The notes below the pieces were generated by a model. That model had not been told where the DNA came from and did no database searches. It saw only the letters and a program-made list of their open reading frames with translations. Made by a program: the position numbers and the translations under genes. Source: Tribonema minus (taxonomy: Eukaryota; Sar; Xanthophyceae; Tribonematales; Tribonemataceae). From it: a stretch of 64,000 bases of DNA. Positions 5,791 to 47,232 of the stretch are shown here, piece after piece (within the stretch, counting starts at the first letter, position 1; each line of letters opens with the position of its first letter). The DNA lies in contig JAFCMP010000235.1 of NCBI GenBank assembly GCA_017506865.1, positions 744,001 through 808,000 on the forward strand, given 5' to 3'.

Positions 5791-5869
5791 GCCCTGAGGA
5801 GTCGGGGCTGGGTGGCTAGCCATGAAGTCTTTGTAGATGTTGGACAGACCTCTTGACCCATCTGCAAAC

Positions 5870-6005: not shown

Positions 6006-6030
6006 GCCATTTTCCTTTCTCCACCATCAA

Positions 6031-28517: not shown

Positions 28518-28590
28518 CGCCCTTGTTTGTTTTTTTGTTTGTTTGTTTTTTTTTGCCGTAGGCCCCGCCACCCGGCGGTTACACTTCGTG

Positions 28591-28602
28591 TTGAAGTTGT
28601 AT
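28591..28602. repeat. Putative LINE target-site duplication, 3' side
   Basis: TTGAAGTTGTAT, identical to 35258-35269, immediately outside the LINE. It sits in a small hairpin (ACTTC-GTGTT-GAAGT). Confidence 0.6.
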
Positions 28603-28661
28603 ATCATGTCCTGGACCGCATGGGCTGCGCGCACGATAAATCGGGCTTGCAATAACTAAAT

Positions 28662-31600
28662 CTACGGAGGGGCCGGCGGTTCGGCGCTGGCCGGCGAGGG
28701 CCGCGGCACTTGCAACAGTGCGATGCGGCGGTAAGCGCTGACGTCGCCATCAGGGGCAATGACTGCGTTCCAGTTGTCGATCACGACACGTGTGAGCGCG
28801 CGCTGTAGCGCGAGGGAGGTGCGGCGGCGCCAGAAGGCAACGCGCTGCTCGAGATTGTAGCTGCCCTGCGAGCTCTGCTCGGCGAGTGCGTGTAGCAGCG
28901 CTTGGGTGTCGCGTGACACAGCGCCGAAGTGGTCAAAGGCTGCGGAAAATAGGGTGTGTGTAGTGGGGTCCAGGGCCCCTGAGACTACGTATGTGTCTAT
29001 CTTTTCCTGCGAAGCCGATTCAAGCACGCGCTGCACATCGCGTGCGCCCCCCTGAGCCTGACGGAGGCGGGAGGGGCATGAGCTGTCACGTATGGTGACG
29101 TCTATGCAACAAGCTACTTCAAAGCCGCCGCGCAGTTTAGTGCACCGGCCTGCTGCTACCGCGTCGGCGCTCGGCTGCGCTTTAGGGACTGGAAGGCAGA
29201 CCTGGTTGCTGCCAAGGACGATGTCCATGAACTTGTTGAACCCGTGGCGCGCCGCGTAGCGGCGGAAGGGGGCAAGGGTGTCCCGGTCGAGACCGCGGAG
29301 GTGGGCCACCTGCTTGAGCAGCTGAAAGAGCGCGTCTGCGAGCAAGTTGGGTCGCGTGACGTTAAGCCCTTGTGTGCAGCGGCGCAGGTGGGCACCCGAG
29401 TCCACTGGTCTATGGCACTTGGGGCACCGCGCCGCAGCGGGGGCGGGGCGCTCCACGCCCAGGTGGCGCCGCAGCGTCTCGCGGAATTCCGGCGGGGACA
29501 TGGTCTCCGCTGGGTCAGTGCTCGGCAATTGCGCCAAGAAACCCATGGCCCCCTTAGAGGCGCTGCTGCGCCACGCCGCGACTGCTTCCAACGCATTTGC
29601 TGCTTCAAGCCGACGCAGCTGCGTGGCGGCGAGCGCTGCGTCTAGCACCCGTGATAGCGCCGCTTGACGCCGCGGCAGCACGGCGGCCGGCGGGGCCTGG
29701 GCAGAGCCTGGCTCGCGCGCCACCGCTGGCGCAGCAGCGCGGCGCGCGCCGGCGAGAGTCCGCATGCCCGGCCCCGCAGCTCCGCCTGCCCGTTGCAGCA
29801 GATCGCGCAGCGCCCGCCATGCGCCGTCGTCCTGGCGCCAGTCCTGGTACCAGACCGTGGGCAGGAGCAGTGCGAGGGCCGCTGCAGCCTCATCGCTGCC
29901 GCTGCGCAGCTGCTGCAGGCAGGTAGCTATCTGGGTGAAGGTGAAGCCATAGCGGGCATGCTCTAGGACGCGGCTGCGTGCCGCGACTGGAAATGCCGCC
30001 AGTGCCGGCCCCATGCACTCGAGGGAACGTGCAGCAAATGCGGCACATGCACGGGGCGCCGCGCCCAGCACGCCAAAGCCACCACTCCCCAGCCGCAGAT
30101 GCACGCGTACCTGCTGATGTGCTGGTAGCGTCACTGGGGCCTCGCCACCCCAGTCGGCGCCGCGTACCCATGCCACTGCCGCCGCCCACAGAGAGGGCGG
30201 CGCCGCCGCCGCCGAACCCGCCGGCGGGCCGCGGCAATCGTCACCCGCCGCCGGCGCGCCCTGGTGGGCCGGCGGCGTAAGACCCGCCGATGGCTCCTGC
30301 GCCAGCGCGGCCACGGCCGCTAGCGTGATGGCGTCGAAGCGCCGTAGCTCCTCGTGCGTGAGGGATGGCGCAGAATTGCGCGAGACATGCCCTGCGCGGG
30401 CGGGGACGGCAAGACGCAGAATGGAGAAGGCAGCCTGCACATCCTCCATCTGCACAAGCTCCGCAACCAGGCGGTCGGTGCCGGGGGCACGAAGGGTCGC
30501 CGCCACTTGCGCGCGCACGAAGCCCTCGGTGCCGACCGGCACCCCCATCAGCGTGATGCCGTCGTCACATACTGGTACGGGGACATTGGCGGCGGCAAAG
30601 ACGGCGGCGGCGCGCTCGCGGGCGCCGCCTGAGGCCGGCACCAGCGCTGCGCATTTCGTGACGTTGACCTGAATGTTGAGCTCGCTCAGCGCCTGTTGTA
30701 TGAAGCAGAACGCGCGGCCAACGTGGCCGAGCACCGGCGCGTCACAGCTGGGCGTCATGATGGTGAGGTCATCGAGGTAGCCCGGAAGCGCCAGTTGCGG
30801 GAACTTGGCGCGGGCAGCCACCATGGTGCCGCGCAGTGCCAGCGCGAACAGCAGCGGCCCCAATGGGTGGCCGTGCTGCACGCCCTGTTGGGAGAGGATG
30901 ATGGCGGCGTCGGCGTGCCCATCTAGGCCAAATTGTAGCCAAGGGGCCCGGCCGGGGCCGTAGATGTGCTCGACGTAGCCGTACAGGCCAGGCAGATGCT
31001 CGGCCACCGCGGTGAGGACTGCCGAGCGCGACAGCGCGTTGAAGGCGTTACTGCCGTCAATGGCAAGGAGCACGCCGCCGCACTCATGCGTGAGCTGCGC
31101 CATGAGCGCCACTCTCTCTGCGCCCCCCCGCGCGCCGACCCCAAACTGGCCAATTGGTTCCAGCAGCGCGGAGACGCGGTCCCGGGTGTCCGTGCAGAAG
31201 GTGCGGGCGAACAGGCGGCGGATGGTGTCGCCGCACGCGATGGGGCGCGCCTTCTCGCCCACAGCGCTGAGGCGCGCGGCCGCGTGAAGGCGCCAAAAGG
31301 GGGCGGGCAGCGCGGCGGGGGTGGAGTACACCGCGGTACCCAGCCACGCCAGCAGCTCAAGGAGCCAGTCAACCGTGCGCCTCGACGTGTGCGCCGTGTG
31401 CCGGACGCACTGCTGGAAGTGGGAGTTGCGCAGCCCAGAGGGACCGGCGGCCGAGCCAGGGTTGGCGGCGAGGATGGCCTCGCGTAGCCCGTCCGTTGTG
31501 AATGAAGCGCAGTTGAGTGGTGCCGGCGCCGCCAGCGCCGCCGCCGCCACCAAGCTGCGCGCCCGCGATGCCGCGGCATCCAGCTTCGCAGACGCATCGC

Positions 31601-32828
31601 CAGCTGGGTGTTTAGCCTGCAGTTTATGCAAGGTAGCGGAGTCGCGGGGGGCAGATGTGTCAGCACCCTCCGCCAGCAGCCGCGCGGCGCGCCCGACGCC
31701 GCCCGGCTGCCGCGCCGTCGCCGCCGCGCGCTCCCGCGCTGCCGCCGCCGCCTCCGTCATAGACCTAGCGCGGCGCGTGCACGCACGGGCGGCGCCGCGG
31801 CGGCAGAAGGCCAGCGCTGTGCGCGTGAGCAGGTCCAGGTCGCCTGCCACGAAGGCCGCAAAACGGTGCGCCCGCGGCAGGGAGCCGTCGGGTACAAGCA
31901 GCAGGCACGGCAGCAGATGCAGCAGCTTGCACCATGCATCGGCTGTGGCGGACGCCTGTGCCGCTGCCTCAACCCCGTGTGCCTGCGCTACCGCCGTCTG
32001 CGCTTCCCGGAGGCCCGCCAGCGTGGCCGTCAAGGCGGCTGTGAAGTCCGAGCGGTGCTCCAGGCGAATGCAGCGGCCGACCACCAGTTGCTGCTGTAGA
32101 ACATAGTCAAAGGAGAGGTCGTCAAGCGCTGCGCGCGCGGGCGAGAGCGGCGCCAGCGTCCAGAGCGGAAGCGCGCTGCGCCATGTTGGCCCTGCCGCAG
32201 CCACAGCGGCAGCTGCGCGGGCGCCGGGGCCGCGCGCGCCGCCGCTGGCTGTAGAGAGGGGGAGGATGGGGGGCAGAGGCGCGACGCGGGGCCCGTGTGG
32301 CCGCTGCGTTGCGGCCGCCCCCCGGGACTTGTACAGGTGGTCGCGCTGGTGCAATTTCGTGCGCACGCACCCTGGCTCGCCGCACGAGGCGCATGCGCAG
32401 AGTAGCAGCTCGGGTTCCACGGCGTAGTAGGTGCCCGCGCCGGCTCGGTGGAGAGTCAAACACTCATCGTCGACCGCCTGCATACGCGCGAGAAAGTCGG
32501 CAGGCACATTCGGATGCTCGCGGCGCTGGTGATCCGCCAGCGTCGTGGCGATGCGGCGCGCCAGCGCCAGCGACGCCGACGTCTGCGCCGTGAGCGTGTG
32601 CGCCTCCCCGTTCCGGCGGAGGCGCGGTTTGGGCACTGGCACCCGAAAGAGGCAGCCAGTGTCATATAAAGGGCAGCGCGGATAGATGGCAGCCGTTGCA
32701 GGCTGAGCGGGCGCCTGCACTGCCTCAGGCTGCGCAGGGTCTATGCCTGCCGCGGCAGCCGCTGCTGCAGCAGCAGCTGCCGCAATGGCCGCCGGTGCGG
32801 CTCCCCCTGAAGTAGCCTCAGACATCAT
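28662..32828 (-). CDS. LINE ORF2: reverse transcriptase with C-terminal zinc knuckle and endonuclease-like domain
   Basis: 1388 residues from ATG 32828 without a stop. After an Ala/Pro-rich start comes a Cys/His cluster (CASCGEPGC...H...H, about residues 145-165). The reverse transcriptase spans about 420-760, with GSAAGPSGLRN, the first catalytic Asp in LLAIDGSNAFNAL (about 590), QQGVQHGHPLGPLLFALAL (about 650) and YLDD (about 685). A CCHC-type knuckle, CPKCHRPVDSGAHLRRC, lies near 1140, followed by a region with IDVTIRDSS (about 1240) that resembles the restriction-like endonuclease of R2-type elements. No apurinic-type endonuclease is visible at the N-terminus, which fits an R2-like build. 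The start overlaps the ORF1 stop (TAATG). The role is target-primed reverse transcription of the element's own RNA. Confidence 0.88.
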   Translation of the reverse strand: MMSEATSGGAAPAAIAAAAAAAAAAAAGIDPAQPEAVQAPAQPATAAIYPRCPLYDTGCLFRVPVPKPRLRRNGEAHTLTAQTSASLALARRIATTLADHQRREHPNVPADFLARMQAVDDECLTLHRAGAGTYYAVEPELLLCACASCGEPGCVRTKLHQRDHLYKSRGAAATQRPHGPRVAPLPPILPLSTASGGARGPGARAAAAVAAAGPTWRSALPLWTLAPLSPARAALDDLSFDYVLQQQLVVGRCIRLEHRSDFTAALTATLAGLREAQTAVAQAHGVEAAAQASATADAWCKLLHLLPCLLLVPDGSLPRAHRFAAFVAGDLDLLTRTALAFCRRGAARACTRRARSMTEAAAAARERAAATARQPGGVGRAARLLAEGADTSAPRDSATLHKLQAKHPAGDASAKLDAAASRARSLVAAAALAAPAPLNCASFTTDGLREAILAANPGSAAGPSGLRNSHFQQCVRHTAHTSRRTVDWLLELLAWLGTAVYSTPAALPAPFWRLHAAARLSAVGEKARPIACGDTIRRLFARTFCTDTRDRVSALLEPIGQFGVGARGGAERVALMAQLTHECGGVLLAIDGSNAFNALSRSAVLTAVAEHLPGLYGYVEHIYGPGRAPWLQFGLDGHADAAIILSQQGVQHGHPLGPLLFALALRGTMVAARAKFPQLALPGYLDDLTIMTPSCDAPVLGHVGRAFCFIQQALSELNIQVNVTKCAALVPASGGARERAAAVFAAANVPVPVCDDGITLMGVPVGTEGFVRAQVAATLRAPGTDRLVAELVQMEDVQAAFSILRLAVPARAGHVSRNSAPSLTHEELRRFDAITLAAVAALAQEPSAGLTPPAHQGAPAAGDDCRGPPAGSAAAAPPSLWAAAVAWVRGADWGGEAPVTLPAHQQVRVHLRLGSGGFGVLGAAPRACAAFAARSLECMGPALAAFPVAARSRVLEHARYGFTFTQIATCLQQLRSGSDEAAAALALLLPTVWYQDWRQDDGAWRALRDLLQRAGGAAGPGMRTLAGARRAAAPAVAREPGSAQAPPAAVLPRRQAALSRVLDAALAATQLRRLEAANALEAVAAWRSSASKGAMGFLAQLPSTDPAETMSPPEFRETLRRHLGVERPAPAAARCPKCHRPVDSGAHLRRCTQGLNVTRPNLLADALFQLLKQVAHLRGLDRDTLAPFRRYAARHGFNKFMDIVLGSNQVCLPVPKAQPSADAVAAGRCTKLRGGFEVACCIDVTIRDSSCPSRLRQAQGGARDVQRVLESASQEKIDTYVVSGALDPTTHTLFSAAFDHFGAVSRDTQALLHALAEQSSQGSYNLEQRVAFWRRRTSLALQRALTRVVIDNWNAVIAPDGDVSAYRRIALLQVPRPSPASAEPPAPP

Positions 32829-35242
32829 TACGGTGGATGAGGGGAGCGCCGCACCGGCGGCTTACAGGCCCAAGGCGCCGCCGCCTCCCTCCGGTGCCGG
32901 CGGCTGGGCCGTCGAGGTGGAGAGGAAGTGGTGGCGGCGGACTGACCTTGGGGCAGCCCGCGCGCGGGGCGTGCAGCGGGGGGTTCCGCCGCCGAGCCCG
33001 GCGTGCGCTCAGCAGCCGTGCGCTTGCGGCTGGCGCGGGGTGTGCCACTGTCGGACATAAGCGCGCTGCTGTCACTGGCAGGCATGGGGGGCTGCCTACT
33101 GCGCGAGGGGGAGGCGCTGCAGTCGCTGCCGTGCCGAGCCGCTGGCGACGATGCGCGCCGACACCGCGAGCGCCCGCGTGAGCAAGAGCGCGGCGGCTGC
33201 CGCGGCGCCGCCGCTGCCTCCAGTGCCACCGCGGGGTCCGCTGCCGCGCTTGCGGCCGCTGCCGCTGCCGCGCTGGCAGCACCTACAGCAGGCGGCGGCG
33301 CGCCCGCCGCCGCCGCGCCTGCCGCCGCCGCGCCCGCCGCCGTTGCTCCGTCCGCCGCCACCGCCGCCGCAGCGCCAGCCGCTGCAGAGCTAGCCTCAAG
33401 GTCTCCCGCCACGGGCGTGGTGGCCACCGCGCCGGCGGCGTCCGCCGCCGGCACCGCCACGCTCGCAGCGTGCGCCGCTTCCTCTGTCAGCTGCGCCTCG
33501 AGTTGAGCGGTCGCCGCAGCGTTGCGCACCTGCTCTCCTTCGCGCAGGCTCCGTTGCTGCGCCGCCAGCCGCTCCGCACGAACTTGCTCTGCCAGAGACC
33601 GGTCGCGATCGGCCTCAGCAGCCCGCTTTCCCGCCTCGGAGGCTGCCAGCAGCTTTGTCAGTGCCTTGACCTGCTGCTGCAGCCCCTTCCGCGCGGTCCT
33701 CCCCTCCAGGATGGCCCCCTGCAGCTGCTGAATGCGCTGCTCCTGGCCCAGCTGCGCAGGGTCCGCGTCGGCCGCCGGCGGCGGCGGCGAGGCGCCCGGC
33801 GACGCGCTCGCCAGCGCGGGCGTCGAGGCGGCGGCAGCGTCCGTCGCGGCGGCGCCGGTCGCCGCCGGCGCTGGAGGGTGCGAGGCGGCGGCGCCGGTGG
33901 GCGCACGCTGCGTCGCGGCGGCTGCCGCCGCGGCGGCTGCAGCCGTGGCTACCGCAGGGGCACCGGCGGCTGTGCCAGTGGCGGCGGCTGGCGTGGTGCA
34001 GGCCGCGGGGAGCGTGGTGTGCGCGCAGCGCGTTGCCCGGCACTGCTGACCCGGGCGCGTGAAGTGCCGTCGCAGGCAGGACGGGCACGCTGTCAGATTG
34101 TCAGGGCCCAGCAGCCGCAGCGCTACTTCCGTGCCGTCCACCGCGCATAGGACCGAGTGCGCGAGTCGCCGCGCAACGCCGCGGACCACTGTTAGCTCCC
34201 AAACACCCGCGGCGCCTGGCGATGCCGCCGACGCCGGCGCCGCGGATGAGGCCGCACCGTTAATGCCTACGCCGCAGGTCTTCAGAGCGCTGGCCAGCAG
34301 CAGAAAGGCGGCGGAAGTGCCGCCGCCGCCCGCCCGCAAGCGCACCGGCGCGATGGGCATGCCAGGAGCTGCGAGTGCGGGCGCAAGCAGCATTGCAAGC
34401 TGCACTGCAGACCACGCCGCCGGCGCGCCGCGCACGGTGACCGTGACCGGGGCGCTCATGTCACCAGCGCGGGTGATGCGCAGGCGGAAGCCGCTGAAGC
34501 TGAAGTCAGCGGAGTCGCCGACCGTTCCGAGCGCCGCGTCAACGAGCGCGGCCGGCGCCCGCAAGCATAGCGTGCGGAAGTCATCACGAGGCGACAGAGG
34601 TCTGCACCCTTGAATAGGGACGCAAGTGAGGCAGCGTCTCCAGCGCCGGCCCTCGCCGCGTCGTGCATGTGCGTGAGCGCCGCCGCTAGCAGCTGCTGGC
34701 GCCCCCGCGTGAGTCGGGCGCGGCGCTGTGCAGCCGCCGCAGGGGTGCTGCGCTCGCGCTCGTGAGGCTGACGGGCCGGCGCGAGCTCTGCTAACAGTGC
34801 GCGGACGCTGGCCGGCAAGGCAGCCAAGTGCTCCTGGGTGTAGCAGGTGACTGGATCCACCGTAAACGAGACTAGGTCTGTGCCGGCTGCCGCCGCCGGC
34901 GGCACAAATGGCTGTCCCTCCGCTGTCGGACGGCCCTGCACGCGCGCCGCCATCGCCATGAGGCGGCCCGCAGCGGCTCCACCCTGGCGCCCCACCGCCG
35001 CGACAGCGGGGGGCACGAAGAAGTACTGCTCCTGTTCCGCGGCGTGGAACATCTCGCTCGCCTGTTGGTCTAGCTGCCCTGGAGTGAGGGCGGATGGGGC
35101 TGGGGTTGGCGTGTAGCTGCCTCGGGGAGTGAAGTAGGCTCCATCGTGGCCGTGCAGCAGCCGTGCCTCCTCCCGAAGCAGGTTGCTCTTCGCTGTAAGC
35201 GACGGGGGTGTTGTCGCAGTTTTGGCGGCTTTGGCCGCCCAC
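32828..35242 (-). CDS. LINE ORF1 (nucleic-acid-binding protein), frame change in 5' third
   Basis: The frame that ends in the TAATG overlap with ORF2 is open from 35242, but its first about 210 codons are Arg/Gly/Pro noise. Over 35190-34590 the protein-like reading is in another frame (LTPGQLDQQASEMFHAAEQE, then SVRALLAELAPARQPHERER). From about 34580 on, the ORF frame is protein-like (RDDFRTLCLRAPAALVDAAL, a CPSCLRRHFTRPGQQC zinc cluster, an Ala-rich linker, a coiled coil with QLQGAILEGRTARKGLQQQV). So there is one frame change near 34570-34620, of the size a single lost base would give. ORF1 proteins bind element RNA. I do not recognise a specific RNA-binding fold beyond the Cys cluster and coiled coil. 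Confidence 0.6.
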   Translation of the reverse strand: MGGQSRQNCDNTPVAYSEEQPASGGGTAAARPRWSLLHSPRQLHANPSPIRPHSRAARPTGERDVPRRGTGAVLLRAPRCRGGGAPGWSRCGPPHGDGGARAGPSDSGGTAICAAGGGSRHRPSLVYGGSSHLLHPGALGCLAGQRPRTVSRARAGPSASRARAQHPCGGCTAPRPTHAGAPAAASGGAHAHARRGEGRRWRRCLTCVPIQGCRPLSPRDDFRTLCLRAPAALVDAALGTVGDSADFSFSGFRLRITRAGDMSAPVTVTVRGAPAAWSAVQLAMLLAPALAAPGMPIAPVRLRAGGGGTSAAFLLLASALKTCGVGINGAASSAAPASAASPGAAGVWELTVVRGVARRLAHSVLCAVDGTEVALRLLGPDNLTACPSCLRRHFTRPGQQCRATRCAHTTLPAACTTPAAATGTAAGAPAVATAAAAAAAAAATQRAPTGAAASHPPAPAATGAAATDAAAASTPALASASPGASPPPPAADADPAQLGQEQRIQQLQGAILEGRTARKGLQQQVKALTKLLAASEAGKRAAEADRDRSLAEQVRAERLAAQQRSLREGEQVRNAAATAQLEAQLTEEAAHAASVAVPAADAAGAVATTPVAGDLEASSAAAGAAAAVAADGATAAGAAAAGAAAAGAPPPAVGAASAAAAAAASAAADPAVALEAAAAPRQPPRSCSRGRSRCRRASSPAARHGSDCSASPSRSRQPPMPASDSSALMSDSGTPRASRKRTAAERTPGSAAEPPAARPARGLPQGQSAATTSSPPRRPSRRHRREAAAPWACKPPVRRSPHPP

Positions 35243-35257
35243 GAGGCAGCAGCATGT

Positions 35258-35269
35258 TTGAAGTTGTAT
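35258..35269. repeat. Putative LINE target-site duplication, 5' side
   Basis: TTGAAGTTGTAT, identical to 28591-28602. This marks the left end of the mobile-element island that follows. Confidence 0.6.
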
Positions 35270-35292
35270 TATATGGGACCAGCAGGGCTGAG

Positions 35293-37932
35293 CACACTTT
35301 GTTTGAAGTTCAGCAGAAGCGGGCTGTATGGCTCAACACCAGGGCTGCCCCTCGTTGAGGCGCAGGTGGCCGCACCTTCATCATGGCGCCTGATTCTGCA
35401 GCAACTTGAAGCGGCAGGTGCAGGTGTACACCAGCATGCCACAAAACTCGCTCGTGGGAGCAGATACTTGCACCACAGCGCGGCAGCAGTCAGCGACCCG
35501 CTCGTATATTCAGCACTGAGCCCTGAACTGGGTGAGGCCCGTCAGGTGTAGGAGCGGGCGTCTATATCGGGTCAACCACGCCGGTGCAAGGCGAGCAGCA
35601 GCAGCAGCATCATCACCCACCAACAGCAGCAACAGGTGTCAGCACCAACACATACTGGAGAGGCAGCTTGTCCTTGCTGGCCCGCTTTTGCGGGTGAGCA
35701 GAAGCTTCGCAAGTCATACTCTGCCACTGAAGTGACGAGCCTTGATACCTGGTGCAATGTCCGCCTGTGAACCACTCTGTTTGCGGTGCTGGGCAACCGC
35801 CACCTGGGCAAGTACAGGCAACAGTGTCTGGAGCAGCTTGGCCTGGTTGATCGCGTGGCTGGAGCAGGGCGACGTACCTGTGAAAGACGACGCCACCACC
35901 GGTGCCACCGCTATTGGCAGCTCGCCATCAACGTTAACAGCAGCACTTAGTGGCATGCAGCCATCTTTGGAGGCGTCGTTTACACTCACGGCAGCTAGGT
36001 AACCGCTGCAGCACTTTGTCAGGAATGCCTTTGAGGACGGCAGTCGTGAGTTTGGCAAACATTGCCTTGCCCAGTCTTTTACCAGGTTCTGTGTTTTCGC
36101 TATGAAGCCACTTTGGATGCAGGACTGCTGTGGGCAGGCATCAGTGGTGCGACGCTGTGCGCATGTTAGCCCCACGTACAGCGCCCTCAGGTCTGAGAAC
36201 GTGCAATGAGGTGACCCCAACACAGCCTTTGCAGCTGCATTGGAGGTCTTGCAGAAACATGAGTTTACGTCCTTGCAAGGAGTCGTGGATGACATTGGTT
36301 TCAGTTCCCGCAGCCTATGCAACGCCGCCAGGAATAATCTGGGCTCACATAGAAGGGGCAACGGTGCTGCAGTGCCACCGGCAGTGGTAGCTGATGAAAA
36401 TACGTTGAAAATACGTTGAAAACGATGCATGGGCATTTGCTGGTGCTGTGCGGTGTAGAAGTGAAAGTGCCTGTTGCAAGTAGTTCAGATAAGCTTCTCC
36501 CGGACATGAATGCCAGTGCGCATGCCAATTCAAATACTTTCGGTCTAGGATATTTCACGATTGCCAACATGTCGCACATAATCTCGTTGACTGCTGGTGG
36601 TCCTGGTGCTTTGCTCAACACTTTGTTTGAAGTTAAGCAGAAGCGGGCTGTATGGCTCAACACCAGGGCTGCCCCTCGTTGAGGCGCGGGTGGCCGCACC
36701 TTCATCATGGCGCCTGATTCTGCAGCAACTTGAAGCGGCAGGTGCAGGTGTACACCAGCATGCCACAAAACTCGCTCGTGGGAGCAGATACTTGCACCAC
36801 AGCGCGGCAGCAGTCAGCAACCCGCTCGTATCATCAGCACTGAGCCCTGAACTGGGTGAGGCCCGTCAGGTGTAGGAGCGGGCGTCTATATCGGGTCAAC
36901 CACGCCGGTGCAAGGCGAGCAGCAGCAGCAGCACCATCACCCACCAACAGCAGCAACAGGTGTCAGCACCAACACATACTGGAGAGGCAGCTTGTCCTTG
37001 CTGGCCCGCTTTTGCGGGTGAGCAGAAGCTTCGCAAGTCATACTCTGCCACTGAAGTGACGAGCCTTGATACCTGGTGCAATGTTCGCCTGTGAACCACT
37101 CTGTTTGCGGTGCTGGGCAACCGCCACCTGGGCAAGTACAGGCAACAGTGTCTGGAGCAGCTTGGCCTGGTTGATCGCGTGGCTGGAGCAGGGCGACGTA
37201 CCTGTGAAAGACGACGCCACCACCGGTGCCACCGCTATTGGCAGCTCGCCATCAACGTTAACAGCAGCACTTAGTGGCATGCAGCCATCTTTGGAGGCGT
37301 CGTTTACACTCACGGCAGCTAGGTAACCGCTGCAGCACTTTGTCAGGAATGCCTTTGAGGACGGCAGTCGTGAGTTTGGCAAACATTGCCTTGCCCAGTC
37401 TTTTACCAGATTGTGTGTTTTCGCTATGAAGCCACTTTGGATGCAGGACTGCTGTGGGCAGGCATCAGTGGTGCGACGCTGTGCGCATGTTAGCCCCACG
37501 TACAGCGCCCTCAGGTCTGAGAACGTGCAATGAGGTGACCCCAACACAGCCTTTGCAGCTGCATTGGAGGTCTTGCAGAAACATGAGTTTACGTCCTTGC
37601 AAGGAGTCGTGGATGACATTGGTTTCAGTTCCCGCAGCCTGTGCAACGCCGCCAGGAATAATCTGGGCTCACATAGAAGGGGCAACGGTGCTGCAGTGTC
37701 ACCGGCAGTGGTAGCTGATGAAAATACGTTGAAAACGATGCATGGGCATTTGCTGGTGCTGTGCGGTGTAGAAGTGAAAGTGCCGGTTGCAAGTAGTTCA
37801 GATAAGCTTCTCCCGGACATGAATGCCAGTGCGCATGCCAATTCAAATACCTTCGGTCTAGGATATTTCACGATTGCCAACATGTCGCACATAATCTCGT
37901 TGACTGCTGGTGGTCCTGGTGCTTTGCTCAAC
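35293..37932. repeat. Recent tandem duplication, two units of about 1.32 kb
   Basis: Unit 1 (35293-36620) and unit 2 (36617-37932) are in the same orientation and differ at roughly a dozen single bases plus one 11-bp length difference in a short ACGTTGAAAAT repeat, so identity is about 99%. The junction falls in CTCAACACTTTGTTTGAAGTT. After unit 2 the sequence runs on through a CTG tract into single-copy sequence. The units cover the 3' part of a minus-strand recombinase-like gene. The duplication is younger than that gene's decay. Confidence 0.92.
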
Positions 37933-38824
37933 ACTTGCTGCTGCTGCTGCTGCTGTGCTGTGCTTGAATCTATGTGCGCTGCAGCAGGCACGTGCATGGA
38001 GCTGGAGCTGGAGCTGGGGCGGCATGAAACACTTTGCCGCTGGGCAGCACTGCGCAATGTGTCATCATGTATGCCAGGTATAGCACCTCTGATATTAGAT
38101 GACACTGATTGGGCCTGGCACTGTGCCTGCACTTGTGTGCTAGGTGCTCGTTGCGCCGCACAGCCGTGTGCTGGGCCACTTTGCAGTTCGCTTCACGTGA
38201 GGTATGGGCAGCATAAGTTTGCACAGGCAGGCTATAGCGTGCTGTTTGTGTCACTTCTTGGTTGTGCACTTCAGCGCCCGCCTGCGGCGTAGCACAGCCA
38301 GTGAGTACCTTTTCATTTGCTGAAATCTGCTGTGGTAGTTGCACCACGTTTGATCCAGCTTGACGCTCGGGCGGCCTGAGCTCTGTAACATAGGCTGGTT
38401 GCCGCACGAGGACAGCAAGCACGCCATCCACAGACACACTACCAGTGTACGAGTGTGCCGCAGTTTTATGTAAGCTGCCACTGACCTTGAGCTCGTACTG
38501 GCTGGAGAAGCTAAGGGAGTCAAATTCACCAGTGCGTGCTTTGACGTGTTCCGCCCATACCCTCTCCTCATCGCTCTTGGCATGGCATATCATGCACTCT
38601 GCGCGCCGGATAGCCTGTTCCATTCCTACCTTGTATGCATCACCGCGTTTCACAACGCTGTCATCATATGTTCTGCGCCACAGGCTTCTGATATGGGCGA
38701 GGTCGTCAGAAAGGGCCTCAGGGTCAGGGTGCACCTGCTCTAACCACCTTACTACCGTGTAGGGGCTCTTGCGCTCATGGAGCCATGTGGTGAGCTTGTG
38801 GATGAGCGTACTCGTGCACGGCAT
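35714..38824 (-). pseudogene. Telomere-resolvase-like tyrosine recombinase gene, decayed, 3' part duplicated
   Basis: Fossil of a recombinase gene read leftward from ATG 38824, with its distal part present twice because of the tandem duplication. N-terminal sense is seen in HKLTTWLHERKSPYTVVRWL. The catalytic-domain region shows ALAFMSGRSLSELLATGTF, LPLLCEPRLFLAALHRLREL and TFSDLRALYVGLT, the same order of segments as in the intact gene at 39021-40124. This order resembles telomere resolvases (protelomerases), a branch of tyrosine recombinases. The copy is broken in a few places and is unlikely to be active. It is divergent from the intact gene, with 196 bp between start codons. Parent element unknown. 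Confidence 0.55.
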
Positions 38825-39020
38825 TGCGCTTAGAGTGTGTTATGTGCAATGCAGTATATATATTTGCTCGGCAGTGGTGATTGCACCACCTGTGCGTCAT
38901 GTGTGTTTTCTGATCAAAGAATCGATAGACCGGTCAGTGAAAAGATGGGCTGCTCGGCGCCACACTTTCGATACGGTTGAATACGCACAAAAATATCTTG
39001 AATGATTGGTACTGCTACAG

Positions 39021-40124
39021 ATGCCTGCGACAAAGCTAACATATGGCGTGGACCATTGGCGAGTGACTCCAGTAGTCGCTTTTGCCATGAAGCGATGTAG
39101 GGGGGTGGATCTGCAGGGCCCATGTGATGCAAGGGGATACTTGCTTGAGGTGATGGCAGCGTGCTGTGACTGGATTGCCAGCGAGGACACATATAGAGAA
39201 AAATGTGCCGCTGCTGTTGGTGCGCAAAAGGACACCCTGCTGGCTGCTCGCAGACCGCTCAGCTCAAATAGCCTGGCTGCTGTTCTCACCAGTGTCCGTG
39301 TAGCATTGAGACGGCATGCGTGGGGTGACTCATTCAGGTGTCCCCTACTTGCTCATCGAAACATCACAAGGCAAGATGAGAGCTATAAAATTAAAGGTAG
39401 GCGTGGGTATTTCATTATGAATTTTGGGCATGTAATGCAGTGGGCTGCAGCTACTGTAGACTCACTAGTGACAACAGAGAAGGAACGTTTTGTGGCTTTG
39501 GGTTTAGTTTCGGGTATGCGCGGGGCTGAGCTGAGGGACCCTGCTTACACAGTAACGCGTGGAGACGCCGGCCACTTCATTACCAGCGAGCGCGCCAAGG
39601 GCGGGCAGGCGAACCATCGTGCACCTTTGTGGTGTGACTTCACCAAGTTTCAGAATGGACTTGCACTCTTGCGCTGTCGCTCCCCTCACGAGCTGAACAA
39701 CATGCAGCGCAAGCTAGACCTGGAGAAAGTACCTGCGCTCAAAACGATAGCAAACCTTTATCGCAAGCACTTTGGTGTAGCCATGACTGCGCACAAGATC
39801 AGGCAGATCTATGCAGCATATTGCTTCCACCACGAGTACGGACACCTGCGCCTGGAGTTTCAAGCACAGTACACCAATGCCATCAAAGCGTATTTGGGGC
39901 ATAGATCTGAGCGATCGTCATCTAGGTATGAGTTCATGAAGCACAGCCCAGCCATGGCTGCTGGAACATTTAATTGGCTTTCAAAGGATGACAACCGCGC
40001 ACCAGCTGCCCTTATAGAGCAGATGCAAGTTATCTCAGATGCGCTGGCGGACATGAACGCAGATGTTATTTTGAAAGCGCTTGCACAGATGCAGGTCATA
40101 GTTGAGCAGCACAGGTCATCGTAA
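39021..40124 (+). CDS. Tyrosine recombinase resembling telomere resolvases
   Basis: 367 residues from ATG 39021, single exon, looks whole. The catalytic set of tyrosine recombinases can be read in order: Arg167 (SGMRGAEL), Lys193 (SERAKGG), His258 and Arg261 (TAHKIRQIYAAY), His294 (YLGHRS) and Tyr303 (SSSRYEF). The stretch between Arg and His-x-x-Arg, with PLWCDFTKFQNGLALLR and LNNMQRKLDL, and the YAAYCFHHEYG that follows, recalls telomere resolvases more than Crypton or phage integrases. Such enzymes cut and rejoin DNA at short inverted sites, either to integrate an element or to close hairpin ends. Two related but decayed genes flank it. I take it as the recombinase of a mobile or virus-like element. 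Which end sites it uses is not visible. Confidence 0.75.
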   Translation: MPATKLTYGVDHWRVTPVVAFAMKRCRGVDLQGPCDARGYLLEVMAACCDWIASEDTYREKCAAAVGAQKDTLLAARRPLSSNSLAAVLTSVRVALRRHAWGDSFRCPLLAHRNITRQDESYKIKGRRGYFIMNFGHVMQWAAATVDSLVTTEKERFVALGLVSGMRGAELRDPAYTVTRGDAGHFITSERAKGGQANHRAPLWCDFTKFQNGLALLRCRSPHELNNMQRKLDLEKVPALKTIANLYRKHFGVAMTAHKIRQIYAAYCFHHEYGHLRLEFQAQYTNAIKAYLGHRSERSSSRYEFMKHSPAMAAGTFNWLSKDDNRAPAALIEQMQVISDALADMNADVILKALAQMQVIVEQHRSS

Positions 40125-40212
40125 AGCTGGACTATAACAAGTGCATGTGAATGCAGGTGGGCGGCACTGGATACCTAATGATGACATATCCATGCTGACC
40201 GCACGAGGGCCA

Positions 40213-40752
40213 TCACAGAGTGTGGCGCTCCCAGCAGAGGGTTGTCAGGTGGCTCGTGAGCACAAGAGAGGTGGGGCGCTGACATATATACTCCATGGTG
40301 CCATGACCAGTTCGATACGAGAAGCAGCGGAAGTGCTTACGCCCGTGAGCTGCACCAAGCATAACACTGCCATGTGCACACTTGGCGCATGTGCAGCCTG
40401 ACAGTGTGACTGAATTGTGCTTGTGCTGGCTGTGCCTCCCTCGCCCTTGTGCACCTGGGCTGGGCATGCACTGGTTCGCCTGCCCTGTGTACCGCATTAC
40501 GAAGGCCGTGGCGCAGAATGCGTTCTGAGCTGCAAGTGTGCGTGACGCTGATGGCTTGCTTGCTCTACTTCCGCCTACCTCTGCGCACAGGTGCGTGAGG
40601 TGTCTGGCGCAGGTCTTGTCCAGCACAACCTGTGCCTTATCACGATCCAAGGCGAGCCGGCACCCCATGCGGTTTGTGCTGCAAGAGCACATCATGACAT
40701 TTTGGGATCCAGCACAAAGCTGCTGCTGCACTACGCTGCGTACTTTTGGCAC
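40213..40752 (-). CDS. Hypothetical Cys/His-rich ORF in the island
   Basis: A minus frame of up to 179 codons beginning at a non-ATG codon, tail to tail with the recombinase. It includes KVRSVVQQQLCAGSQNVMM, a Cys/His-spaced part (CARHLTHLC) and CTCAKCAHG with further His and Cys, which could be zinc-binding. I do not recognise it. It may be a fragment of an element gene or chance. Confidence 0.25.
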   Translation of the reverse strand: MPKVRSVVQQQLCAGSQNVMMCSCSTNRMGCRLALDRDKAQVVLDKTCARHLTHLCAEVGGSRASKPSASRTLAAQNAFCATAFVMRYTGQANQCMPSPGAQGRGRHSQHKHNSVTLSGCTCAKCAHGSVMLGAAHGRKHFRCFSYRTGHGTMEYICQRPTSLVLTSHLTTLCWERHTL

Positions 40753-41808
40753 GGCAGGACTATTTGAGGCTGCACTGCACCACTTAGGATGACTTCATGG
40801 TGTTTGATGGGCGCGGCATTGAAAGGTGCGCAATCAGCGGAGCACATATCCATTTGCTTCTAGTTCCTTGACGTGCCTCCCCCACACGCCCAAGTGAAAA
40901 ATTCTGCGACTTATAGTGTGGAAGTTCAGCAGACCCAGATCCGGCGCCCAAAATGCACGTCCCTCAAAGGAAAGCCGCAATCCAGGTGATTGCTTCTTAG
41001 TGCCCATTCACTTGCCTGGTTCATGCAATGCTGCACAACTCAACTATGTTTTTTGTTCTGCCATCTTGTCGTTGTGAAGATCCGCCATGTGGCAAGTCAT
41101 CGACAATGCGCCGAGTTGCATTATGCTCATCACTGTCATGCCATATCACCAGCGCCCTGACATCATCAGTCATCAGCGCCCCACTTGCAGCCCTGATCCG
41201 GTAGCCGCAGCCACTTGTGAACTTGCCAACTTTTGCGCATTGACGCCAATGCGCAGCCTAGACGCTCACAATGTGGCCGCTGTCTTGTTTCACTGCCAGC
41301 GCCCTCGCAACAGCATTAAGCAGCCAGCAGCAGCAGCTGTCGTGGCCCATTGTCACATGGCAATAGATGTGCAGGACTTTGTACAGGCCCTCATGCGCAA
41401 TATGCACTGCAGCTGGTGCAACTTTCCAGCGGGCCGCTCCGCCGGTGTACCCTCGCTTGAATCAACTGGTTACGTCAGGCAATGATATAGCAATTGATGG
41501 GCGCACAGGGATTCTTGTCACCAATGCGCATGCGTAGGTGGAAAGGCAGCTGATTGATGCTGTTGTGGTGTTACACTGAAGAGAGCGTACGTTTATACAT
41601 AGGCATGTAGTAGCGCTGCTGTGCCAATGTACGTTTATACATGGGCATGTAGTCGCGCTGCTGTGCCAATGAGCGCAACATGAGTTGGGCAATAAGCAGC
41701 GCCAGCTGCAATAGACGCAGATGCCGTCCCTCGAGAGCATGGCAGCGCTACGCTAAGCCTGAGCTGTCGGCGCAGTACACTTATGCCATCACTGTAGAAG
41801 GTGATACT
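40753..41808. other. Island sequence without recognised gene
   Basis: Contains a 132-codon + frame from ATG 41087 without recognisable features, and a short tandem repeat at 41589-41672 (GTACGTTTATACAT, GGGCATGTAGT, GCGCTGCTGTGCCAATG twice). Nothing else is seen. Confidence 0.4.
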
Positions 41809-42400
41809 TTAGCCACCAGCTCTAGCAGTCATCTCCACCAGGGTTATCACATTGAGGAACTTGCACGTACCACATCCATCACTGCGAGCTGCATAGCAAC
41901 TGCGGAGGTGATGAGTGTGCATCTTTGTGCCAAAGTGCGCTGTAAAGTTAGTTGCCAAGACCTGTGTGAACTTGATATCATCGAGATTGACTCTGCTCTG
42001 TAGCTTGCATAGTGCTGCAGGTGACACGGCTCGTATGCGCTCAAGCGCAGCCAAGAAAGGAGCAAACTCACAGTGCAGGGGGGGCACCCCTGCCCCCCCG
42101 CCCTTTGCACGTGAACTACATCTGAACGTATTGGGCTGCGCGCCATTGGTGATGTGATACTGCCTGCCGCACACTTCAGCAAATCGCAACCCACTACAAA
42201 GCATGATTGCTGCCACCAGCTCTACATCTGATGCCCGGCTGTCAGATTTTATGTGCTCAGCACTCTGCATCTCACAGCTATGTTGGTGACTAGATAGCCG
42301 AGTGCCGTTTTAGCTTCATACATTGGCTTCTGTGTTTCCATGTTTGTGAGAGCAAGTGCTGGACACCTGAATGAGTCACCCTAGTGATAACAGTTTAGGC
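41809..42400 (-). pseudogene. Second tyrosine recombinase of the 39021 type, decayed
   Basis: Minus strand. AAIMLCSGLRFAEVCG, SSRAKGGG, KLQSRVNLDDIKFTQVLATN and THHLRSCYAA line up in order with the intact recombinase at 39021-40124. The nucleotide sequence upstream (GGTGACTCATTCAGGTGTCC, near 42370) is shared with it. It is a fossil with a few breaks. It is clearly the same gene family as 39021-40124 but not a recent duplicate. Confidence 0.6.
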
Positions 42401-42655
42401 GCTTGCGCACCTTGGTCAGCACTGTAGCATTGGTAAAGTCAGTAAAACCATCCTCACGCATCTCTTCCACCCACCACTCACATTATTTTAAGTACCGACA
42501 TCGAGTGCCCCTTCTCATTGCGCTCTCCATTTCGGTCACAGTCATGCAGCGCAACAACAGCAAAACAGACAGCATAGTCTACTCTGCCGTCCATGATATG
42601 ACTTTACACACACTGTACATATTTAAGAGCTATCTTTGCGCGAGACATGTCAGGG

Positions 42656-42934
42656 TTAGGGTTTATACCAGCTCCGAGCGTTTGCATCCCACTTACAGCC
42701 GGCTTTCACTGCGTCAGCGCGGTCGTCATAGCTATAGTGTCGCCAGTCTTTGTTCCCCCAGGGGTTGGCGGCTTGGGCGTCCTCCTCACACATCCACTGC
42801 TTGCACACTTGCCATGGTGCAGGAAGACAAACATACCACTTTTTTTCGCTCATATCGAAACGGGCTCCTAAAGCCTTGGCGAGGTTCTTTTCTTTGTATG
42901 GCACGTTCAAGTATACGCGACGAGTAGGGTCCAT
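42656..42934 (-). CDS. Small protein with two DUF5710-like motifs
   Basis: 92 residues from ATG 42934. The first motif, RVYLNVPYKEKNLAKALGAR followed by FDMSEKKWYV, is a close match to the DUF5710 consensus. A second, shorter motif (DDRADAVKAGCKWDANARSW) repeats its end. DUF5710 occurs alone or attached to primases and topoisomerases in phage, plasmid and viral proteins and is thought to bind nucleic acid. The gene is divergent from the zinc-finger gene across the repeat cluster. It looks whole. Confidence 0.7.
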   Translation of the reverse strand: MDPTRRVYLNVPYKEKNLAKALGARFDMSEKKWYVCLPAPWQVCKQWMCEEDAQAANPWGNKDWRHYSYDDRADAVKAGCKWDANARSWYKP

Positions 42935-43112: not shown

Positions 43113-43655
43113 TTTTGGGTATGCTTGGGCAGGCATGGGTATGCCCTGACCCCACCCTCAACGCACAGCTGAGAACACATCTCTCTCTTTTTCTTATATG
43201 TTTGAGTTGAAAAAGTACCAAGGGTACCCAAGCATACCCAACCTCATTTAAGAGGTCTCTGTCATGCTGTTATGGAGGTGAATTTGCCACATCCTCACAT
43301 TAACCACTATTTGGGTACCCTTGGGTAGGCTTGGGTACCCTTTTTCACTCAAACACAGCAGAAAAATAAAAGAGACATGTACTCTCTGCTGTGCGTTGGG
43401 GGTGGGGTCAGAGCATACCCATACCTGCCCAAGCATACCCAACCTCATTCAAGAGGTCTCTGTCATGCTATTAAGGAGGTGAAGTTGCCACATCCTCACA
43501 TTAACCACTACTTGGGTACCCTTGGGTAGGCTTGGGTATCCTTTTTCACTCAAACATATAAGAAAAAGAAAAGAGACATGAACTCTCTGCTGTGCGTTGG
43601 GGATGGGGTCAGAGCATACCCATACCTGCCCAAGCATACCCAACCTCATTTGACT
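43113..43655. repeat. Repeat cluster: one inverted and two direct units
   Basis: Two direct units of about 207 bp (43236-43450 and 43443-43655) each contain TTGGGTACCCTTGGGTAGGCTT, CTTTTTCACTCAAACA, AAAGAGACATG, CTCTGCTGTGCGTTGGGG and CATACCCATACCTGCCC. A shorter unit, 43113-43240, is the reverse complement of the second half of these. The arms can therefore pair with either direct unit. Many short GGGTA/TACCC inversions lie within. It fills the gap between two divergent small genes of the virus-like segment. Confidence 0.88.
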
Positions 43656-44594: not shown

Positions 44595-46658
44595 TTACAT
44601 GAGGTAATCATAGAATGCGCGCTGCACACCGGGCCTCTTGATGATGTCACTCAGCTTGCCGAAGTATTCAGCATCATTCTGTCTCGCATTCGATGCGCTG
44701 ATGTACTGAAACTTGCGATCCTTTGATCGTATGCGCAAGAGATTGTGCTCGGCATTGGTGGTGATGATGACACGCAAGAAGTCGGAGATGTTGAATGCGT
44801 GTCCTATGCCCTTCTGCTCGCAGCGTGAGCTCATGCTGGTGATGAGGTCCATGAGCTTGTTGTAGAAGGCGTTCACCTTCTTTGGCTCTAGCTCTTCGAA
44901 AAAAGCCATGACTCGGTTCTCGGCAATGTTGCTGAAGCGACCGAAGCAGTCATTTTGGAGGTCGGTGGTGCGATAGTGCAAGCCTATGCCCAACATGTAC
45001 TCGATCAGGTGCGTAAACTTTGATTTACCAACACCCTCCTCACCGAGGAGCACAATGGCAGTGCGTGTCTTTGCCCCGGGGTACTGAAACAGCTGCGCCA
45101 GCCAGTTGATGAGATATATCGCCGCCGGCTGGTAATTGTTGCATATGATCTCTTTGATGAACGGCAGCACATGTGTGTCCAGGAGGTGATTGTCCTCCTC
45201 CGTTGCAGTGTACTTCTCCACTAGGAAACCGCTCCATGAGTTGTACACTGTGTCAGGGCACTCATTAGGTGGAGGCACAAACCTACATGCCTCATATGTG
45301 AGTATCTTCTCATCATTGAGCCAGAAAGTCTCCTCATCATCTTTGCCCTTGCTTGCCCTCATGAAGGGGCGTTTGACCACACTAATCACAGCGTGCCATT
45401 TCTCCTCCTCCTCCTCAACCGTGACATCAGCATCAGCATCTGTACCGGCACCTGCAGCTGCCTTGCGCTTCTTGGGCTTTTTCTCTGGTTGGCTTGCGTA
45501 TGCTGAGATGTTGTAGTAGTACATTTTGCGGTAGGTGCCCATTAACTCCCTCTCAGCACGCGCATAGTGATCTAGAGAGCCGTCATCATGTTGACAAACT
45601 TCGACATAGCTGAGCGGCCTCTCGGTCTTGAAATTGGTCAACTCGAATATTTGCTTGGTCTGATCGTATGACCGAAATGCGGCATCGAATATCTCAGTGT
45701 TCTCCACCTGATGACGGGCCAAGGCAGTCCATATGGAGCATGTTGGCACCTTGTCGCTGCACCCCACCACGTCCAGTCCACTCGCCTTCTTGAACTCCGC
45801 CGACGCCCTGTCGAGCAGCTCCTGTAATATCTCTTCCGTGCTGCCGAGGGCGTCGTATATGTAGGCGGTCACGATGACGCCAGCCTCACACCACACCTTG
45901 TAGGCTACGTCCACCGCCCAACGCTCACACGTGGCCAGCAGGTAGTATATGGCCGTCGCGTCCGGATTGTCCGAGTCCTCTTTGATTTCCGTGCACCATG
46001 GGTAGAGTGCTAGCAGGGCTGTGACTGCGCTTCTCACCTCCTTCTTGAACAGCTTGGGCCACTGCCACTGTGGCTTGTACTTGCAAAAGTTGAGCAGTGA
46101 CAGCAACAATGCTTTCGCCGACGGCACGTCATCAACACTGTGCTCGTTCTCGACTACCTCCAACAGGATCTGACGCCGCTCGTTAACGTACTGCTGGATG
46201 TATGTGTGCGGCAAGCCGTGGAGCTGACAGAGGCCCAGCAGAAAACGGTAGTTGCAGTTGCTGATGTCATTCAGGTACTGTCCCTGCATCTGAGCCTGCC
46301 TCATGACCTTGCTGAGATATTGCTGGGACATGTTGCTGTCTGCGTAGTAGCGACCATAGCCGTGTGCATGTGTCCTCAACACAATGTCAAGTGTGCCATC
46401 TTCACGTACCATTTGTGACAATTCCATCATGTACTGGAGGCGGTGCTTGTGATCGCTGTTGTCCAGCTCCATGACCTTGTTAGGGCACGATATCTGAGTC
46501 CGTAATATGTCCATGTCGACACACTGGGTGATCCTCAGCCCTGTGGGGTCCGGAAATTGTATGGGCTCTGGCTCCATGTGGCTGTGTGTATCTGGAGATG
46601 GCGAAAACAACTGCGGAAAAGCAGCACATGGTACCATGTACAGAAATGAGATTTTCAT
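44595..46658 (-). CDS. TVpol-SF3 helicase replication protein
   Basis: About 687 residues from ATG 46658, the first ATG in a frame that opens at 46679. Residues about 115-290 read like the TVpol domain, a divergent family-A polymerase found next to SF3 helicases: GRYYADSNMSQQYLSKVMRQ, then SNCNYRFLLGLCQLHGLP, YVNERRQIL, AKALLLSLLNF and TCERWAVDVAYK. A Lys-rich linker (EKKPKKRKAAAG) follows. The SF3 ATPase has Walker A in LLGEEGVGKSKF (about 540), Walker B in MAFFEEL (about 588) and motif C in RVIITTNAEHN (about 632). Such proteins replicate small viral and virus-like DNA genomes. No host role is known. Confidence 0.8.
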   Translation of the reverse strand: MKISFLYMVPCAAFPQLFSPSPDTHSHMEPEPIQFPDPTGLRITQCVDMDILRTQISCPNKVMELDNSDHKHRLQYMMELSQMVREDGTLDIVLRTHAHGYGRYYADSNMSQQYLSKVMRQAQMQGQYLNDISNCNYRFLLGLCQLHGLPHTYIQQYVNERRQILLEVVENEHSVDDVPSAKALLLSLLNFCKYKPQWQWPKLFKKEVRSAVTALLALYPWCTEIKEDSDNPDATAIYYLLATCERWAVDVAYKVWCEAGVIVTAYIYDALGSTEEILQELLDRASAEFKKASGLDVVGCSDKVPTCSIWTALARHQVENTEIFDAAFRSYDQTKQIFELTNFKTERPLSYVEVCQHDDGSLDHYARAERELMGTYRKMYYYNISAYASQPEKKPKKRKAAAGAGTDADADVTVEEEEEKWHAVISVVKRPFMRASKGKDDEETFWLNDEKILTYEACRFVPPPNECPDTVYNSWSGFLVEKYTATEEDNHLLDTHVLPFIKEIICNNYQPAAIYLINWLAQLFQYPGAKTRTAIVLLGEEGVGKSKFTHLIEYMLGIGLHYRTTDLQNDCFGRFSNIAENRVMAFFEELEPKKVNAFYNKLMDLITSMSSRCEQKGIGHAFNISDFLRVIITTNAEHNLLRIRSKDRKFQYISASNARQNDAEYFGKLSDIIKRPGVQRAFYDYLM

Positions 46659-47232
46659 GTCGACACCCTGGGCACGCACTGAGCAGTTATACCGCCTCCT
46701 GTACAGGCGATGCCATCAGCATAGCCACCTTAGTGAAAAAGACGATGGTCTTGATGCTGTTCAAACCCTAGACAAAGCATACTTCCACCTCAGGCACCAT
46801 CAGCGCGTCAACAGCAGGAGCAGTTACAGCGGCATAACTGTAGCAGCAGCAGCAGCAGCAGTAGGCACACACCTCATGATCATATCCCTGAAGGCTCTGT
46901 CGGTGTATGGCGTCCACGTCCATGGCGGTCACAGGCTCCGGGCTACCTATGGAGTGTGAGTGGTCCAGAACACACCACCTATGGCGCACAATTATGGTGC
47001 TGAATCCCCGGGCTGAACCGTTTTGAACCCCCGGACCCTTGAATTCTCGGGAACCGGCACAAGGTGGTGAACTATAGTAAATATAGTAAATAGAGACTAT
47101 CATGTACTATTTTTTAATTCACACAAACATACACGGATTAGTTGCCCTCCCGTTCAACACAAGGGGGCCTTTTGAGTCCCGGCGGGGGGCGCGTCTGGAA
47201 GGAAGAAACGCCTTTTTTGTGGCAATAGAGCT
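46659..47232. other. Junction between virus-like segment and host gene
   Basis: Contains a GCA tract (46850-46868, Ala/Ser in a chance frame), two AGTAAATATAGTAAATAG-like units near 47080, and a GC-rich end. No gene and no clear terminal repeat of the element is seen. The promoter of the poly(A) polymerase gene should be here. Confidence 0.4.

Follow-up and report, generated by a model that had tools for sequence, protein, structure and literature searches.

Why should a chromosome of the alga Tribonema minus carry a cluster of tyrosine recombinases that resemble telomere resolvases, enzymes known from phages, from a few bacteria and, more recently, from giant viruses of algae? The question is raised by a 64,000-nucleotide stretch of contig JAFCMP010000235.1 (here C235:744001-808000; the window is this whole stretch), in which an initial annotation described three such loci on both strands, one with a full R-K-H-R-H-Y catalytic set, and from which it suggested repeated capture of one element lineage, possibly one with hairpin-ended linear DNA. 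We compared the window with the rest of the genome (158 Mb, 554 contigs). The open reading frames (ORFs) are present where they had been placed, and the frame with the full set is open, with R167, K193, H258, R261, H294 and the Tyr nucleophile Y303 occupying all six positions of the resolvase catalytic set. The three loci are real as ORFs, but they amount to two kinds of gene and a fragment, all from one element copy: the cluster is one decayed, rearranged and truncated copy of a mobile element of ~17 kb that is multicopy in the genome, and the idea of repeated capture falls with this. The element is, on balance, probably linear, with hairpin telomeres formed by its own resolvase-like recombinase.

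The recombinase match is far beyond chance, because the same gene stands at 12 places in the genome: nine of these copies are open frames with 344-367 aligned residues, one is split over two frames and two contain stops. The stretches fetched for comparison are parts of each element copy, and copy numbers are lower bounds. A shared unit is found in contig C353, in the left arm of C226 and at the end of C235, and combines the plus-strand recombinase with two minus-strand ORFs, one of 582 amino acids (aa) and one of 930 aa. In C353, 176 bases separate the 582-aa ORF and the recombinase; in C226, an ORF of ~295 aa with no Pfam match lies between the 582-aa gene and the near end of the element. 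Judged by its matches, the 930-aa protein is a D5-type primase-helicase (D5_N, E = 2.7e-10; a C962R-type AEP domain, 1.1e-4, just below cutoff; PHROG DNA primase, 2.4e-33). At least 32 stretches of the genome match the 930-aa protein and at least 79 match the 582-aa protein, these being counts of stretches and not of genes, and many of the 79 are only 32-51% identical. The copy in C379 measures 16.9 kb end to end (~50,999-67,932).

The intact recombinase is under purifying selection: among the 15 pairs formed by six of the nine open copies, the ratio of nonsynonymous to synonymous substitution rates (dN/dS) was 0.14-0.31 in the 12 pairs with dS > 0.09, and 0.50, 0.60 and undefined in the three closest pairs (dS 0-0.036). 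The ratio was 0.39-0.55 for the 582-aa gene (four copies) and 0.20-0.33 for the 930-aa gene (three copies), and selection therefore seems to have preserved all three genes as copies of the element accumulated. A Pfam scan of 7 distinct element ORFs recognized neither capsid nor packaging proteins, though shorter or spliced genes may escape it. By tblastn, the 930-aa protein matched 577 phage records, the best 10 of the 577 with 27-32% identity over 25-29% of the protein; the two recombinase-type genes had no phage match save two hits at E values of 6 and 8. Homologues in viral metagenomes, which the initial annotation had thought worth seeking, did not materialize: in IMG/VR, a scan that starts from short exact patterns and has limited reach confirmed none for the three element proteins.

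The ends of the element are palindromic. Contig C226 (48,216 bases, of which 1-43,000 were read) holds a head-to-head dimer with arms at 1036-18572 and 18851-36955 that are 99.4-99.6% identical. The right arm alone bears a 525-bp insert (19681-20205), 100% identical to a stretch of C235, and the arms are therefore real, separate copies. At the centre is a 45-bp perfect palindrome, TGGTCTCGTGAGTGTATATAGG-G-CCTATATACACTCACGAGACCA, present twice. With this centre as query, the genome returned single-arm copies whose homology ends at a common point: on the outgoing arm, 8 of 9 ends read agree to within 4 bases, and the ninth, C179, falls 50 bases short. The edge reads AGG[GC]-CCTA in 8 of the 9 near ends (C50 has diverged), and the same half-site, inverted, is found at the opposite, far end of the copies in C379, C150 and C334. 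The two ends in C379 have 12 matching half-site bases; beyond these, no clear inverted repeat was found in the 234 and 3000 bases compared.

Palindromes of 45 bp and 29 bp stand at element joints and ends. A motif-free scan with spacers up to 5, run on 244,699 fetched bases (chosen neighbourhoods and ends, not a random sample), detected perfect palindromes with arms of at least 14 at four places, where base composition predicts 0.006. Two of the four are in C226 and the others at the C179 end and the C150 joint; all four are element ends or joints. Their arms vary in sequence with pairing retained. As a control, the same scan placed telRL, the site of the phage protelomerase TelN, at the top in phiKO2 and tied it for first place with a terminator in N15. 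A search of all 158 Mb for the 13-base core TATAGGSCCTATA gave 15 places, against a single one for the reversed pattern, and all 15 are in seven contigs that bear element sequence. Eleven of them are at ends or joints identified by sequence homology; the four in C235 were assigned by the half-site motif and by how far they lie from the primase-helicase gene (2.5 and 7.4 kb). One of the eleven, at C334:534028, is a copy carried by a direct repeat of 32 bp that adjoins another insert (C334:531,376-534,040, ~2.65 kb); this insert ends in inverted repeats at least 145 bases long (99%) and is flanked by the 32-base direct repeat, which contains the core. The window copy has no core site and is therefore truncated.

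Resolvases act on a cognate palindromic site, and the element has a candidate for one at its joints and ends. TelA is described as cutting 6 bp apart, and protelomerase as resolving palindromic dimer junctions (PMC3558466); the C226 centre looks like such a junction. The earlier guess at hairpin-ended linear DNA thus gains independent support from the palindromic ends and the inverted dimer, from which we infer the hairpins themselves. A role at chromosome ends, suggested by the fact that C235 ends inside an element, was rejected: the genome has TTAGGG arrays (7062 tetramer matches; C2 begins with them), and C235 breaks off within a CTG repeat. The TTTAGGG tetramer was not found in the genome.

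One insertion could be compared with empty sites. The host flanks of the C379 copy adjoin without the insert, ~20 bases apart, at two places in C524 and in C533, where 32-73 bases of the far flank match at 81-94% and 51-56 bases of the near flank at 91-95%. The CCTATA that comes after the dyad at the C379 near end is missing from the empty sites, and therefore probably derives from the element. When the best centre was taken for each end, with CCTA required inside, extra palindromic bases numbered 3, 3, 3, 4, 6, 6, 8 and 14 at 8 of the 9 near ends and 6, 6, 6 and 14 at four of the five far ends (C235:704 is readable as 13). These variable remnants resemble the bases left behind by the off-centre opening of hairpins, as in V(D)J joining. 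Possible 4-bp repeats flank both insertions for which two outer ends were read (AGTC in C379; GTAA at the two-copy block in C150), which is only suggestive of a 4-bp target duplication: there is freedom in placing the boundaries, and of the two insertions only one has empty sites. No further empty sites came from C150 or C146: the genome search returned each of the two C150 flanks, and the flank in C146, only once. As a separate observation, the flank outside a near end (C141:16128-16314) and that outside a far end (C235:1089954-1090140) are 98.4% identical over 187 bases and carry a half-site-like sequence of their own; this common flank may mark where two elements meet, or a target used by both.

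Which family does the intact recombinase belong to? Searched at E values up to 10, Pfam detected ResT-TelK_cat (PF16684) in three of six window ORFs (0.0026 for the intact recombinase, 1.7e-4 for the ORF at 37038-38132, and 0.008) and no other recombinase family; at E values up to 1 the same model was detected in both C353 genes (0.0059 and 0.006). All of these matches fall below the curated cutoff of Pfam. We then compared three alignments: A2 (582-aa family), A3 (recombinase family) and A4 (11 TelN-type proteins). In hhalign, A3 matched A4 at 70% (E = 4e-5; 58% and 9.9e-5 on rerun) with all catalytic boxes within the alignment, and lambda Int at 4.1%. The scan with lambda Int gave near-identical sequences, useless as a control profile, and an alignment of XerD, XerC and lambda Int was used as replacement; against it, A3 scored 1.7%, A4 1.6% and A2 0.2%. 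The best of 150 column shuffles each reached 24.4 and 22.6, against actual scores of 43.0 for the intact recombinase and 77.5 for the second gene. On ORF segments, the A3 profile found its own family and then second-gene ORFs (best 5.6e-4), so the recombinase and the 582-aa gene look like distant kin.

The intact recombinase and TelN have the same 33 residues from the box-II Arg to the His and the same 9 from the His to the Tyr; these spacings are 23 and 9 in XerD, and 28 and 11 in TelA by the residue numbers given in PMC3558466. Since TelN matches the recombinase and TelA differs, the spacing is TelN-like and not universal for resolvases. An R-x-I-Y-A motif is also common to the recombinase and TelN. 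By profile comparison, the intact recombinase is weakly nearer to TelN than to Xer/lambda Int, and it is a candidate enzyme for end resolution. AlphaFold2 models had mean pLDDT values of 40.8 (window recombinase, 2-row alignment) and 37.5 (window ORF 37041-38132), which makes a fold search with them meaningless. Two more distant recombinase ORFs, 22-23% identical and with AK and LGHR..Y motifs, were seen in contigs C490 and C92 (L038:4051-5475, plus strand, 474 aa; L039:4349-5734, minus strand, 461 aa).

The second gene has the stronger resemblance to TelN. The PHROG family phrog_5272, which includes N15 TelN (3e-293) and phiKO2 TelK (5e-291), matches the 582-aa gene at 1.1e-9 and the window ORFs 37041-38132 and 35717-36436 at 5e-10 and 3e-4. 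A2 matched A4 at 96% (E = 2.4e-9); searched against the PDB, the A2 profile returned TelK first (1.2e-6) and then TelA chains (0.47-1.9); and a TelN hidden Markov model (HMM) run on 2035 ORF segments had second-gene ORFs as all of its top 13 (5.8e-6 to 0.0011). On these comparisons, the 582-aa protein specifically matches the TelN/TelK protelomerases and is homologous to them over the catalytic domain. A weak non-recombinase model, TetR_C_13 (0.0023), outscores ResT-TelK_cat on it. In an 8-row alignment of the family, the box-I Arg is present in 7 of 8 rows and the box-II Arg in all 8; there is no LGH motif, and after box II no Tyr column is complete in all rows, with partly conserved Tyr columns at +3, +11 and +65. 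The family in this alignment thus lacks the six-position catalytic set of resolvases. We infer that the 582-aa protein has lost catalysis and may have a binding or regulatory role instead; a displaced Tyr nucleophile is possible. The diverged relatives of this TelN-like family (dozens of stretches, 32-51% identical, with open frames of ~160-480 aa) are spread over many contigs (e.g. L056-L061) in which no recombinase match was found, and some could be host genes of such origin.

The gene set and its selection, the end structure, the dimer, the joints with a complete palindrome and one insertion compared with empty sites were established directly, and they suggest the following cycle. The free element would be a linear DNA closed by hairpins. 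The primase-helicase of the element would copy the DNA through the hairpin ends, giving inverted dimers, and the intact recombinase would cut and reseal the palindrome into two hairpins, like TelN at telRL. The TelN-like 582-aa protein probably binds or regulates the ends. In integrated copies, a hairpin would have been opened off-centre and joined to host DNA, with a few palindromic bases left behind.

Several points weigh against this cycle. The intact recombinase scores 17.8 bits against a Pfam cutoff of 27, and a non-recombinase model, Cas3_HD (5.2e-4), outscores ResT-TelK_cat on it. Neither phrog_5272 nor any other PHROG matches it, the TelN HMM misses it at E values up to 10, and in the PDB the A3 profile finds only an XerC-like chain with a non-significant E of 0.35. 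Its box II is HxxR (HKIR) and lacks the Lys or Tyr of resolvases, which is seen in K380-R383 of TelN and in Tyr363-Arg366 as reported for TelA (PMC3558466). The gene with the strong TelN match is the one without the LGH..Tyr part. The palindromes lie kilobases away from the recombinase gene, where telRL of N15 is ~165 bases upstream of telN, and palindromic ends might also suit an intermediate that is circular or open-ended. The far end in C379 has zero extra palindromic bases, and the near end in C50 is not scorable. The initial interpretation holds in part: Pfam, the TelN/TelK PHROG and hhalign place the proteins closer to telomere resolvases than to other recombinases, but the best TelN match falls on the gene without the LGH..Tyr part, and the intact gene is missed by PHROG and the TelN HMM.

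HxxR boxes are also found in XerD and lambda Int, and this, with the missed TelN HMM match and the XerC-like chain, would suit a Crypton-like element, or one like the polinton-like viruses (PLVs), that excises as a circle and whose palindrome is a recombination site and never hairpinned; many PLVs are described as having tyrosine recombinases and primase-helicases (PMC4642659, PMC10120064). Such a circle would leave the palindrome halves at both ends and the complete palindromes at joints to be accounted for, as well as the TelN-specific profiles and the Pfam search at E up to 10 without any other recombinase model. The 1.7% of the recombinase family against the Xer/lambda alignment bears on phage integrases, Crypton and DIRS recombinases having been judged via Pfam only. 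The possible 4-bp repeats at both insertions are a further difficulty: tyrosine recombinases are said to make no target duplications, with some longer duplication-like repeats reported at recombinase-bearing PLVs (PMC12220804). We consider a circular element unlikely.

Less probable again is descent from a larger endogenous DNA virus, kin to phaeoviruses, coccolithoviruses or PLVs, with the element as a family of remnants in which only replication and telomere genes were kept. The D5_N and C962R-type matches of the primase-helicase are of the kind expected from it, and phaeoviruses are described as having an integrase, a telomere resolvase and a telRL-like palindrome (PMC13236599). The small size of the end-to-end C379 copy, far below that of a giant-virus gene set, is at odds with such an origin, as are the four other ORFs of one arm, in which Pfam found no capsid or packaging protein, and the IMG/VR result, with its pattern-based limits. 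Faulty assembly or plain foldback duplication is a very improbable source of the inverted dimer and the palindrome, for although C226 is only 48 kb, C235 ends within an element in a CTG repeat and C334 has an inverted pair with its joint away from the palindrome, the insert confined to one C226 arm recurs unchanged in C235 and complete palindromes of other sequence occur at C150 and C179.

The hairpin-ended element that we favour can be set beside known systems. Like N15 and phiKO2, with TelN/TelK and telRL, it has a gene homologous to the TelN catalytic domain, a recombinase with the 33 + 9 spacings and R-x-I-Y-A, and a palindromic site with a symmetrical core. Unlike them, it has two recombinase-type genes, the better TelN match being without LGH..Tyr, and an HxxR box; the TelK_N, muzzle and stirrup domains are found in TelN and TelK and not in the element proteins; the palindromic site is at the element ends and not beside the gene; and several copies are integrated in a eukaryote genome. 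Phaeovirus elements of Ectocarpus (EsV-1, FsV-158, EVEc) are described with a recombinase, a telomere resolvase and a telRL-like palindrome, at which sense-antisense reads turn (PMC13236599), and telomere resolvases are reported in phaeoviruses in PMC2373305 as well. Compared by description, those elements are giant viruses in which capsid genes are present (EVEc has 372 genes in all) and telRL is internal, whereas the present element is ~17 kb with half-palindromes at both ends. The 'telomere resolvase' ehv387 reported in coccolithoviruses (PMC10222054) is likewise homologous to resolvases and comes from a DNA virus whose host is a unicellular alga, but by its description it is a core gene of a giant virus. 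PLVs with a tyrosine recombinase are described as integrated elements of 15-30 kb with primase-helicase and recombinase (PMC10120064, PMC4642659). The element differs from them in that no capsid gene was found among its Pfam-scanned ORFs, and in having half-palindromic ends (12 matching bases in C379) where PLVs are described with inverted repeats of several hundred bases (PMC12220804).

Within the window, the minus-strand pieces are a single second gene, undisrupted in other copies as the 582-aa ORF and here split by the internal duplication and frame breaks (Table 1). Apart from the C50 copy, the fetched element copies compared diverge from the window copy at 40153 or earlier. The truncated relative of the recombinase has no LGH..Y part, and a further matching piece with one stop lies at 42276-42431; the two recombinase-derived stretches that bear the inverted-repeat arms point in opposite directions.

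Table 1 Features of the element copy in the window.
Feature	Position	Strand	Basis
Intact 367-residue tyrosine recombinase, resolvase-like	39021-40124	+	ORF; R-K-H-R-H-Y complete
Second gene, C-terminal part, TelN-like catalytic domain	37038-38132	-	78% to residues 210-581 of the C353 582-aa ORF
Second gene, N-terminal part, in another frame than 37038-38132	37970-38824	-	88% to residues 1-226 of the 582-aa protein (C235:782141-782824)
Second gene, duplicate fragment	35714-36436	-	77% to residues 358-581 of the 582-aa protein
Internal direct duplication, unit ~1.3 kb	35294-37936		35294-35593 = 36618-36917 (98%); 36406-36623 = 37719-37936 (99%)
Stretch common only to the window and C50 copies among fetched copies compared	40153-41873		84-87%
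Truncated relative of the intact recombinase	41809-42270	-	36% identity over 116 residues
Inverted-repeat arms	39323-39364 with 42340-42381		83%

Other sequences adjoin these. A GC-rich block (64-75%) at 28662-35242 holds two long minus-strand ORFs (1388 and 804 aa); the 1388-aa ORF has a YLDD motif, noted by eye, and zinc-finger-like cysteines, without a Pfam match at E up to 0.1, and the block is probably a non-LTR retrotransposon. The 150 bases at 35105-35254 recur, 100% identical, in the stretch L039 fetched from contig C92. On the other side, a 694-aa protein (44598-46679, minus strand; DUF5906, 2.5e-10; PHROG primases, 1.7e-12), a DUF5710 ORF (42659-42934, minus strand; 2.3e-20) and a cluster of inverted and tandem repeats (43115-43643) are perhaps another mobile element; the 694-aa helicase was rejected as part of the present element, having no similarity to the 930-aa protein (E = 0.38). 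In C226, 37950-43000 contains a gag-like ORF of 1427 aa and, after it, one resembling a DNA cytosine methyltransferase; both were recognized by eye and are possibly a retroelement with a methyltransferase; C353 has sequence in common with C226 up to C226:39096. The flagellar gene FAP206 was also found in the genome, which together with the TTAGGG repeats marks it as eukaryotic.

Among the matches listed in the open-licence literature, we found no description of a telomere resolvase carried by a mobile nuclear element of small size. The apparent novelty lies in the setting: an element that is small and multicopy, with no capsid gene detected, half-palindromic ends and a TelN homologue without LGH..Tyr beside an intact recombinase. 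We tentatively propose a class of small nuclear elements that combines linear hairpin-capped DNA, its own primase-helicase, an active protelomerase, a TelN-like end-binding protein without catalytic Tyr, and entry into chromosomes by off-centre hairpin opening that leaves palindromic bases and ~4 bp of duplicated target, a combination that as a whole we still find somewhat doubtful. If true, hairpin telomeres would be present in an unusually small nuclear element, and phage-type hairpin telomeres would be linked to eukaryotic mobile DNA. Intact, conserved enzyme genes and a short, defined palindrome would then make eukaryote-borne hairpin formation testable in vitro.

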